The notes beneath the pieces were generated by a model. The model had not been told where the DNA came from and ran no database searches. It worked only from the letters and a program-made list of their open reading frames with translations. Positions 14,553 through 29,631 of a stretch of DNA of 64,000 nt are shown in pieces. Within the stretch, counting starts at the first letter, position 1. Each line of letters begins with the position of its first letter. Both the position numbers and the translations under genes were made by a program. Source of the DNA: Quadrisphaera sp. DSM 44207 (GTDB lineage: Bacteria > Actinomycetota > Actinomycetes > Actinomycetales > Quadrisphaeraceae); the NCBI RefSeq assembly GCF_900101335.1, contig NZ_FNKA01000001.1, forward strand, positions 930,001 through 994,000. Direction: 5' to 3'.

Positions 14553-16112
14553 CTAGGGGCGGCCGGCCCAGGTCATCGACCGGGCCATCCGCAGCGGCGC
14601 CTCGCGCACCGGCACCCCGGCGCGCGGGGCCTCGACGACGCGACCGGAGCCGGCGTACACCGCCACGTGGTAGACCGTGGCCGGGTCGTCCGGGTCCGTG
14701 CCGTAGAAGACGAGGTCCCCGGGCCGCAGCTGCGAGTACGGGATCTTCTCCGCGCGGCGGTACTGGTCGCGCGAGGTGCGCGGCAGGCCGACCCCGCCGC
14801 GCTTCCACGCCTGCGAGGTCAGCCCGGAGCAGTCGTAGGCGTCCGGTCCGGAGGCGCCCCACAGGTACGGCGTGCCGATCTCCCCCCGGGCCCACTCCAC
14901 GGCGGCCCGCCCGCCGGCGGCCGACCCGCTGGAGCTGCCGGTCGGGACGACGGGGGTGTCGGGGGCGCTCGGCGCGCCGGCGTCCGAGGCCGTTCCCGAG
15001 GACGTCGCCGTGGAGGTCGCGGAGCCGTCGGCCGCGGGGCTCGGGGACGCCGTCGAGCGGGTCCTCCGCGCGGTGCCCGGCGAGGCGCTGCTCGAGGGCG
15101 TGCTGCCCGACGACGCGCCGCTCGAGGACGAGCGGCCGGACGACGACGCGCCGGTGGCCGCCGACGGGGCCGCCGACGGGGCCGCCGACGGGGCCGCCGA
15201 CGGGGCCGCCGACGGGGCCGCGGTCGGGGCGACGGGGCCGGAGGCCGAGCGCCGCTGGCGGTCGGCCTCCTGGCGCCGGAGCCTGTCCTCGGCGGCCGCG
15301 GCCTCCTCGCGCTCGCGCCGCTGGCGCTCCAGCGCCGCCTGCCGCCGCTGCTCCAGGGCCACGCTGGTGCCCCGCAGCTCGGCGAGGCGGGCCACCAGCC
15401 GGGCGCGGGTGGCCTCGGTTCTGCCGACGAGGGCCTGCGCGTCGGCGGCGGAGGCCGCGGCGGCCCGGCGAGCGGCGTCGGCCGCGCCGGCCGCCGCGCG
15501 CTGGTCCGCCAGCGCCCGCTGGGCCTGCTCGTCCATCAGGCCGGCGACGACCTCGGCGGCCCGCATGCGCTGGTGGGCGCGCTCGCGCACCTCCCCCACG
15601 GCGTCGAGCAGCGCCGCGCGGTCGAGCAGGTCCTGCGGGCCGCCCCCGTCGAGGAAGGCCGAGACCCCGGCCAGGTCACCGCCCGAGCGGTAGGAGCCCG
15701 CCGCCAGCCGGCCGATCGCGCGGCGGGCGTCCGCGACGCCGGCGCGGGCGTCGCCGGCGGCGGTGCGCGCGGCGTCGGCCGCGCCCGTGCGCTGCTCCAG
15801 CTCCGCCTGGGCGGCGCCGTACTCCTCCGTCGCGGTCGCGGCGCGCACCTGGGCGTCCTCCAGCCGGGCCGAGGCCAGGGCGAGCTGGGCCTCCGCGGAG
15901 GCCACGGACGTGGCGGCCGCGTCGGCGTCGCGGCGGGCGTCGTCCACCTGCTGCTGGCTGGGCGCCTCGGGAGCGGCGCTCGCGGGCAGCCCGGAGGCCA
16001 GCACCAGCGCGGCGGCCGCCGCGACGGTCCACGGGGCGGTCCACGGGGCGCGCGGCAGCGGGCGGCGCGCGGCGCCGCCGGGGCGCGGTGCGGTCGGCCG
16101 GGCTCGTTCCAC
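14553..16112 (-). CDS. Secreted NlpC/P60 peptidoglycan endopeptidase (RipA-like)
   Basis: Cleaves cell-wall peptides outside the membrane. Layout: Arg-rich start, signal peptide (VAAAAALVLASGLPASAAP), a long coiled-coil region (~residues 50-280, rich in Ala/Glu/Arg), a low-complexity linker with five PSAA repeats and Ser/Thr/Pro runs, then the NlpC/P60 domain. Catalytic Cys is in AYDCSGLTSQAW, His in VYHVAVYAG, and GDLVFYG precedes. 519 residues. The coiled coil and linker match actinobacterial RipA/RipC division hydrolases. Convergent with ppa. GTG start at 16112 has no strong ribosome site. Confidence 0.88.
   Translation of the reverse strand: MERARPTAPRPGGAARRPLPRAPWTAPWTVAAAAALVLASGLPASAAPEAPSQQQVDDARRDADAAATSVASAEAQLALASARLEDAQVRAATATEEYGAAQAELEQRTGAADAARTAAGDARAGVADARRAIGRLAAGSYRSGGDLAGVSAFLDGGGPQDLLDRAALLDAVGEVRERAHQRMRAAEVVAGLMDEQAQRALADQRAAAGAADAARRAAAASAADAQALVGRTEATRARLVARLAELRGTSVALEQRRQAALERQRREREEAAAAEDRLRRQEADRQRRSASGPVAPTAAPSAAPSAAPSAAPSAAPSAATGASSSGRSSSSGASSGSTPSSSASPGTARRTRSTASPSPAADGSATSTATSSGTASDAGAPSAPDTPVVPTGSSSGSAAGGRAAVEWARGEIGTPYLWGASGPDAYDCSGLTSQAWKRGGVGLPRTSRDQYRRAEKIPYSQLRPGDLVFYGTDPDDPATVYHVAVYAGSGRVVEAPRAGVPVREAPLRMARSMTWAGRP
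15157..15216. repeat. 12-bp tandem repeat, five perfect copies
   Basis: Five perfect copies of gccgccgacggg lie inside the linker of the NlpC/P60 gene and encode PSAA five times on the minus strand. A degenerate sixth copy follows. It is a likely length-variable linker. Confidence 0.88.
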
Positions 16113-16196
16113 GGCCCGTGCATCGGCACCGGCCGCGGCCGCCTTGACCCTCCGCCCGGACGGCCAGCCCCCGCTCAGCGCGCGCAGGCGCCGCGC

Positions 16197-27946: not shown

Positions 27947-29554
27947 TCAGACGGTGAAGCGGCCGACCAGGGCCTGCAGCTGCGCGCTGACGCGCCGCAG
28001 CTCGACCGCGGCCTCCTGGGACTCGGCGACGCCCCGGGTGGTGGAGGCCGCGGCCTCCGCCACCCCGGAGATGTTCTGCGCGATCTGCACGGAGCTCTCG
28101 GCGGCCTCGGCCACCGAGCGGGACATCTCCCCGGTGGTGGCGGTCTGCTCCTCCACCGCCGAGGCGATGGTGGTCTGGAAGTCGCTGATGGAGGTGATGA
28201 TCGAGGAGATCTCCTCGATCGCCTCCACCGCCCCGGTGGTGTCGGCCTGGATCGTCTCCACCCGGGCGGCGATGTCCTCGGTGGCCTTGGCCGTCTCCTG
28301 CGCCAGCTCCTTGACCTCGTTGGCGACCACGGCGAAGCCCTTGCCCGCCTCACCGGCCCGCGCCGCCTCGATGGTGGCGTTCAGGGCGAGCAGGTTCGTC
28401 TGCTCCGCGATCGAGGTGATCACCTTCACGACGTCGCCGATCTCCCTGGAGGAGCTCCCCAGCTTGGTCACGGTGCTGGTCGCCTGCCCCGCCGCGGCCA
28501 CGGCGTCGCTGGCCACCCGGGCCGCCTCGGAGGCGTTGGTGGCGATCTCGCGGATGGAGGCGCCCATCTCCTCGCTCCCGGCGGCCACGGTCCCGACGTT
28601 GGAGGACACCTGCGAGGCGGCAGCGGCGACGACGCCGGCCTGCGCGGCGGCCTCCTCCGCGCTGGCCGCGATCACGTGCGAGGTGGCGCCCAGCTGCTCG
28701 CTGGTGCTGTCCAGGCTGGCGGTGCTGCGCGCGATCTCCCGCACGGTGTCGGCGACCTGGGAGGCGAAGCGGTTGAAGGCCGCGGCGAGCGCGCCCAGCT
28801 CGTCCCGGCGGTCCTCGTCGGCGCGCTGGGTCAGGTCGCCGTCCCCGTCGGCGATCTCGGCGAGGCGGGCGGTCAGGGCGGCGAGCGGTCGCGTCAGCGA
28901 TCGGGTCAGGGCCACGCCGATGACCACCACGAGCACCAGGCCGGCGACGCCCGCGACGAGCATCACCCGCTCGGCGCGCTCGGCGGCCACCACGGCGCGG
29001 GCGGCCGCCTCGTCGCTGCCGCTCCGGGCCGCCTCGACGACTCCCTCGACGCTGGCGGCGATCGTGGCGAAGTGCTCCAGCGACTCCCCGGACGCCAGGT
29101 CGTTGGCCGCCGCGACGCTGCGCGGGTCCCCGGCCCGGTAGGCGGCGACGATGCGCTCGTCGGTGGCGAGGAAGCTGTCGAAGGCCTCCTGGGCCGCCGT
29201 CAGGCTCGCCCGCTGCTCGGCGGTGAGGTCGTAGGCGGCGACGCGGGCGAGGTCCTCGGCGAAGGCGGCCGTGGAGGCCAGGAACTGCGCGCGCTGCCCG
29301 ACGTCGTCCTGGGTGGCGCCGGGCACGCCCCGCACGGTGTCGAACGCGTACCCGGTCTGCCAGCCGGCGAAGTCCGCGGTGCGGAACTTCGCCTCCAGCG
29401 CGTCCCCGGTCAGGTCGACCTGGCCGGCCAGGGCCGCCGTGGCGCGCCGGCTCTCCGCGAGGCTGGTCACGCCGTTGACGACGACCACGACGAGGATGCC
29501 GGCGATCAGGGCCAGGCAGAGCGCCATGCGCCGGCCGATCTTCAGGAAGGACAC
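27947..29554 (-). CDS. Methyl-accepting chemotaxis protein
   Basis: Chemoreceptor of 535 residues. N-terminal helix ([22 protein letters not shown]), a helical periplasmic sensor (~45-240, four-helix-bundle type), second helix ([20 protein letters not shown]), a HAMP domain ([21 protein letters not shown]) and a long signalling domain with the hairpin tip [48 protein letters not shown]. The GTG at 29554 starts VSFLKIGRR; the upstream frame crosses the promoter. Its expression is probably flagellar-sigma dependent (site at 29606-29631). No che genes are adjacent. Confidence 0.93.
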
Positions 29555-29605
29555 GACTGGCTCCAGCGACGTCGGGACGCGACGCCTGCCGTCGCTCAGG
29601 GGTGC

Positions 29606-29631
29606 TTCGGCACGGCGGCGGGAGACTTGAG
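29606..29631 (-). promoter_or_regulatory. FliA (sigma-28)-type promoter of the chemoreceptor gene
   Basis: On the minus strand CTCAA (29631-29627), a 15-base spacer, and GCCGAA (29611-29606) exactly match the flagellar-sigma consensus reported for motile actinomycetes (CTCA[A/T]-N15-17-GCCGAA, from memory). It is 52 bp from the receptor start, leaving a leader of about 40 nt. Confidence 0.68.

Follow-up and report, generated by a model that had tools for sequence, protein, structure and literature searches.

The 64,000-nucleotide stretch analyzed here (the window; contig C1, positions 930001-994000, of a genome of 3.2 Mb split over four contigs) contains a chemoreceptor gene preceded by a sequence that resembles a flagellar promoter. 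This raises the question of whether the receptor belongs to a motility regulon and, if it does, which sigma factor would read its promoter. A sequence-only reading had called the site an exact FliA-type promoter 52 bp from the start codon, had assigned the receptor to the flagellar regulon, and had predicted that the strain is, or once was, flagellated. The features that bear on these claims are collected in Table 1.

Table 1. Positions of the promoter-like sites in the window and of the genes behind them
Feature	Position	Strand	Basis
-35 element CTCAA, receptor promoter	29627..29631	-	motif match; matrix from flagellar-cluster sites
-10 element GCCGAA, separated from the -35 element by 15 bases (GCCGAT in the local consensus)	29606..29611	-	motif match; matrix
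Predicted transcript start, 5-9 bases beyond the -10 element	29597..29601	-	predicted from position only
Chemoreceptor gene, 535 aa, GTG start preceded by GGAG	27947..29554	-	gene model; Pfam
Second promoter-like site, GTCAA-N16-GCCGAT, two trailing bases included	16120..16148	-	matrix 18.2, window maximum
NlpC/P60 protein gene behind the second site, GTG about 10 bases away	14553..16112	-	Pfam; start placed from the frame

We confirmed CTCAA-N15-GCCGAA on the right strand ahead of the receptor (CTCAAGTCTCCCGCCGCCGTGCCGAA, window positions 29606-29631, minus strand); it is the only copy in the window, and none of 100 shuffles yielded one. The site is sense to the gene and lies within about 200 bases of the start codon, with a gap of 51 bases from the -10 box to the GTG. 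Its elements resemble those of the genome's flagellar sites, which have a spacing of 15 to 16 bases, except at the last base of the -10 box; there the receptor site has A where local sites mostly have T, and the word exact was therefore too strong. A spacer of 15 bases is also that of the enterobacterial sigma-28 consensus. Set against the flagellar sigma-28 (FliA, or SigD) consensus as quoted in the part of PMC8325347 that we consulted (-35 TAAA, -10 GCCGATAA), the site carries TCAA at the TAAA position and shares the GCCGA core; it differs in that the -35 element here is CTCAA, GCCGAT is mostly followed by bases other than AA, and the receptor site itself ends in GCCGAA. The sequence-only reading had given CTCAA-N15-GCCGAA as the flagellar sigma consensus of motile actinomycetes, and it was not found in the Actinoplanes papers searched for it.

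We scored the site with a matrix built from nine promoter-like sequences in and at the edge of the flagellar cluster described below, with receptor sites left out. At 16.9, the receptor site falls below all nine training sites (18.6-22.8). Measured against every position of random sequence, this score is borderline: the maxima of 12 random Markov 64-kb sequences ranged from 13.9 to 17.3, and one of them (17.3) exceeded it. Against the upstream regions of the 56 modelled genes in the window, the site stands out, as only the receptor and the NlpC/P60 gene scored above 13, the next best region reached 8.8, and none of the 56 regions passed 13 when reversed.

The gene behind the site encodes a methyl-accepting chemotaxis protein, with a HAMP domain (residues 216-266; PF00672, 55.2 bits) and an MCP signalling domain (residues 341-501; PF00015, 116.5 bits). 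The Pfam scan returned no match in its sensor part, and no close orthologue appeared among the matches listed: the top-scoring outside match had 52% identity over residues 98-534, and those of higher identity spanned the signalling part only. Eight receptors are encoded in the genome, and each has a sense-strand site scoring 13.5 or more (22.5, 22.5, 22.3, 17.1, 16.9, 16.3, 14.0 and 13.5, the last two weak); six reach at least 16, and antisense scores do not exceed 6.3. We also scored 40 upstream regions of receptors from the same family, hand-chosen among the matches listed whose alignments began at residue 28 or earlier (one region was shortened by a contig end). At least 16 was reached by 28 of them and 12 fell below, compared with none when reversed and five on the antisense strand; four of these five exceeded 20 and are probably true divergent promoters. 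Among named receptor loci, 76 of 79 were usable, and 24 scored at least 12 while 52 scored below, with one antisense and no reversed match. A strict rule of N15 for flagella and N16 for receptors was discarded, as the 28 family receptors scoring at least 16 split into 16 with N16 and 12 with N15.

These comparisons bear on whether the site is simply a chance match in GC-rich sequence, with the receptor read from an ordinary promoter. Such a reading would fit the one random sequence in 12 that beats 16.9 when all positions are counted, and it would fit the census of a looser pattern, CTCA-N15..17-GCCGAA, which matched 11 times genome-wide compared with 10 for the backward control. Nevertheless, we consider chance very improbable, given how near the receptor start the site lies, that every receptor in the genome has one, and that the remaining window genes, with one exception, score no higher than 8.8.

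Since the looser GCCGAA pattern was at background, we used the genome's own consensus in its place. Unlike the GCCGAA form, CTCAA-N15/16-GCCGAT was enriched genome-wide, with 21 sites against one in the backward control. Twelve other genomes of the family had 9-24 such sites against 0-3 in controls, and two relatives without FlhA or flagellin (G031 and G036) had 15 and 20 against 5 and 4; these counts are probably inflated by codon usage, because N16 holds CTC and GCC in one frame. With the last base left free (CTCAA-N15/16-GCCGA), the genome has 35 sites, with 9 in the control, and for 27 of the 35 a modelled gene on the same strand begins 10-163 bases downstream. One more, at C1:1106753, sits inside an over-long open reading frame model upstream of conserved fliA sequence and was counted apart from the 27. 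We judged the other seven to be chance matches: six fall within gene models (C1:813023, C1:1084146, C2:100523, C2:116506, C2:158022 and C3:126978), and one (C2:850431) falls in a spacer of a CRISPR-like repeat array. This array, near C2:850400, has 28-base repeats and by eye resembles type I-E CRISPR.

Six of the 27 sites precede flhA, fliM, flbD, flgB, flgN and cheB. Five more lie before receptors and another five before GGDEF/EAL genes, of which four were identified by Pfam and one by eye; two lie before genes of a pilus cluster, which encode a pilin-like protein and a type II/IV secretion ATPase. The remaining genes encode a VanY-type peptidase, a LysM transglycosylase and a DUF1059 protein, together with three small proteins that matched no Pfam family; an RmlB-like protein and two small secreted proteins were recognized by eye. 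CTCAA-N15/16-GCCGAT is legible before flgB, flbD, flgN, fliM, flhA, cheB and several receptors, with -10 variants at flagellin (ACCGAT) and at the fliA site (GCCGAC). The two small secreted proteins (L096:7549-8136, minus strand, and L101) look by eye like the TasA/camelysin type, the first having no Pfam match. The NlpC/P60 gene of the window joins other cell wall enzymes behind such sites in the genome, VanY and LysM-SLT.

The prediction of a flagellated strain was borne out, and the fliA and flagellar genes that it called for were found together. A flagellar and chemotaxis cluster at C1:1.07-1.12 Mb, 113-160 kb from the receptor, encodes a flagellin (C1:1100312), a second flagellin-domain protein (C1:1108863), FlhA (C1:1075576) and a FliA/WhiG-type sigma factor (about C1:1105738-1106646). 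Gene models were drawn over C1:1060001-1140000, with FlhA, FliM, FlbD, FlgB, FlgN and CheB confirmed by Pfam and the remainder assigned by eye. The cluster sigma factor scored 164.8 bits against TIGR02479, under the cut-off of 189.6, and is thus a divergent member. A second sigma factor, on C3, scored 417.8 bits against the WhiG equivalog model (cut-off 343) and 277.4 against TIGR02479, and these two make up the FliA-clade sigma factors of the genome. The attribution of the site to FliA therefore stands at the level of the clade; FliA itself is unproven, because WhiG, of the same clade, is encoded as well.

Given that the same promoter type precedes flgB, flagellin, flbD, flgN, fliM, flhA and cheB, as well as the receptors, the placement of the window receptor in the flagellar regulon appears sound; the set is wider than flagella, in that it takes in pilus and cyclic di-GMP genes. 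We consider it highly probable that the site functions as a promoter of the sigma-28 (FliA/WhiG) clade, which would put the chemoreceptor in the motility regulon of a flagellated genome. A FliA-clade sigma factor would bring RNA polymerase to CTCAA and GCCGAA upstream of the receptor, transcription would begin in the interval given in Table 1 and leave a short leader, and the receptor would be produced alongside flagella and the genome's other receptors despite the gap of about 113 kb to the flagellar cluster. Alternatively, the site could be a relic, decaying since the receptor was part of the flagellar regulon, with transcription now weak or arising elsewhere. A sub-consensus -10 base and the lack of a close receptor orthologue among the matches listed would be expected of a relic; on the other side, the receptor frame is open with both domains kept, in three genomes of genus g3 the flgB site likewise ends in GCCGAA (with N16), and we noticed no broken flagellar frame on reading through the cluster gene models. 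We regard a relic as improbable.

If the promoter works, its spacer and its last -10 base could suggest which of the two sigma factors reads it. Spacer length tracked the gene in flagellar clusters, first in our genome's own family and then across the order. A search for WhiG and FlhA covered 198 genomes from the order. At 1e-40, 69 had a match to the WhiG model, and 45 of these exceeded the cut-off. For G010, G028 and G113, which are among the 69, the sole match looks by its score like a FliA; family f9 and most of family f8 have a WhiG under the cut-off, which we counted as present. Flagellar neighbourhoods were read in 14 further genomes without WhiG, with the incomplete G023 and G164 left out, and in 17 hand-chosen genomes with it. 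We took flgB, flhA, fliA, cheB and fliM as early genes and flagellin, flgN, flbD, fliD and flgK as late genes, each named by its best blastp match to our genome's proteins, so that 'cheB' takes in other response regulators.

In the first count, 165 of 584 scanned genes passed, compared with 9 in the reversed control. Early genes in genomes with WhiG had N16 in 35 cases, N17 in 7, N15 in 12 and no site in 80, and late genes had N15 in 63, N16 in 4, N14 and N17 in 1 each and no site in 40. Without WhiG, early genes had N15 in 7 cases, N16 in none and no site in 48, and late genes had N15 in 5, N16 in 1 and no site in 27. Because this score favors A and T at two variable positions, we recounted with a score blind to both, in a shorter region, and required a perfect core match (123 of 583 genes passed; reversed, 2). 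With WhiG, the recount gave N16 30, N15 7, N17 2 and N14 1 at 133 early genes and N15 52 and N16 2 at 109 late genes; without it, the 55 early genes had N15 5 and N16 1 and the 33 late genes N15 4. The early N15 sites in genomes with WhiG (12 in the first count, 7 in the recount) include those of fliM and of one flgB of our own genome. With counts pooled so that each gene contributes a single cell per family, WhiG-bearing genomes gave 12 N16/17 to 4 N14/15 for early genes and 0 to 22 for late genes (Fisher, 6.7e-7), and early genes with and without WhiG, N14 excluded, differed at p = 0.03; these cells still share descent and are not independent.

The bases at the two variable positions followed the spacer. 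At N15 sites the fifth -35 base was G in 34, A in 17, C in 15 and T in 2, and the last -10 base was T in 61 of 68; at N16 sites the former was A in 32 of 33, and the latter was T in 12, A in 11, G in 5 and C in 5. Two promoter classes are thus well supported, a late class CTCAn-N15-GCCGAT and an early or regulatory class that is mostly CTCAA-N16-GCCGAn, and we propose that FliA would read the first and WhiG the second. This idea was partly prompted by G028, a genome without WhiG that has N15 at flgB, flhA and fliM and is itself counted in the WhiG-less set. The prediction drawn from it, that early genes lack N16 where WhiG is missing, compares with zero N16 sites in the first count and one in the recount. 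The seven early N15 sites of the first count without WhiG include four from newly read genomes, two of these from G113, which is of the same genus as G028, and for three of the seven the position coincides with the estimated gene start or falls inside it. WhiG-less genomes with sites come almost solely from families f17 and f3. Families f6, f13 and f19, which supply 13 of the 16 WhiG-less genomes read, have almost no such sites at flagellar genes and are uninformative about the two classes, the exceptions being N16 at fliM in f6 (blind recount) and a weak N16 at flbD in f13 (first count). Several of their genomes, G051, G071 and G077 among them, have FlhA and no WhiG match. A WhiG-bearing genome without flagella would be a separate comparison: G003 was dropped as a candidate when FlhA proved to be present, and G027 (WhiG, no FlhA match) yielded 13 sites, of which, at the 12 loci examined, 2 fell in intergenic sequence upstream of a gene model, both N16, which is too few.

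Judged by these classes, the receptor site is a hybrid in its sequence, pairing the N15 spacing of late flagellar promoters with the GCCGAA end seen at N16 sites. Its spacer leaves it outside the proposed WhiG class and favors FliA, since N15 is the late-gene spacing, and its terminal A points toward WhiG, being commoner in the class tentatively assigned to that factor. Taken together, FliA seems somewhat more likely as the reader. The competing account, in which WhiG drives receptors, pili, cyclic di-GMP enzymes and early flagellar genes, much as proposed for Rubrobacter, remains a serious contender that we nonetheless believe to be the less probable. WhiG is encoded in the genome, A is more frequent at N16 than at N15 sites both at the last -10 position (11 of 33 versus 4 of 68) and at the fifth -35 position (32 of 33 versus 17 of 68), and N16 is found at all five GGDEF/EAL genes and both pilus genes behind sites in the genome. 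Against it, a spacer of 15 is what 52 of 54 late flagellar sites have in WhiG-bearing genomes. Several N16 sites lie in one type IV pilus-like cluster (C2:604001-640000), before secretion ATPase, pilin-like, GGDEF and EAL genes.

We tentatively suggest a wider scheme, which we hold at well short of even confidence: in flagellated Actinomycetales with both sigma factors, motility genes would be divided by promoter spacing, with WhiG as the upstream switch of a sigma-28-to-sigma-28 cascade. WhiG would read CTCAA-N16-GCCGAn at fliA, flgB, flhA, cheB and type IV pilus and cyclic di-GMP genes (an early and lifestyle tier), and FliA would read CTCAn-N15-GCCGAT at flagellin, flgN and flbD (a late tier). 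WhiG possibly switches on fliA, cyclic di-GMP might gate the cascade if RsiG is present, and hybrid sites such as the one before the window receptor might answer to both sigma factors.

WhiG is a sporulation sigma factor in Streptomyces, and if the cascade exists, that factor would also be an upstream motility switch. Control of pili and cyclic di-GMP enzymes by WhiG has been proposed for Rubrobacter radiotolerans (PMC8325347, consulted in part); our sites share the promoter clade and the presence of type IV pilus and cyclic di-GMP genes behind them, and differ in that the targets named there are pilus and cyclic di-GMP genes, whereas here flagellar and chemotaxis genes are included and FliA stands beside WhiG. 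Actinoplanes missouriensis has the FliA-family sigma factors FliA1-3 (named in the parts consulted of PMC13293333 and PMC11064477), and Actinoplanes pili and flagella are described as driven by WhiG-like flagellar sigma factors (PMC8325347), a likeness to the mixed set found here. The consulted part of PMC4255298 states that the roles of WhiG in the motility of simple motile actinobacteria had not been analyzed, and the titles and abstract beginnings examined on WhiG, flagella and actinobacterial FliA regulons mention neither a WhiG-to-FliA cascade nor spacing classes. The present genome offers WhiG and FliA together, a predicted target set, and two promoter classes one spacer base apart, so that the old question of the role of WhiG before sporulation is now open to a few direct experiments. 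Transcripts of several genes with such sites, among them the L040 receptor, fliM and the GGDEF gene that ends at C2:609740, would be leaderless, since their modelled start codon follows the end of the -10 box by only about 10 bases.
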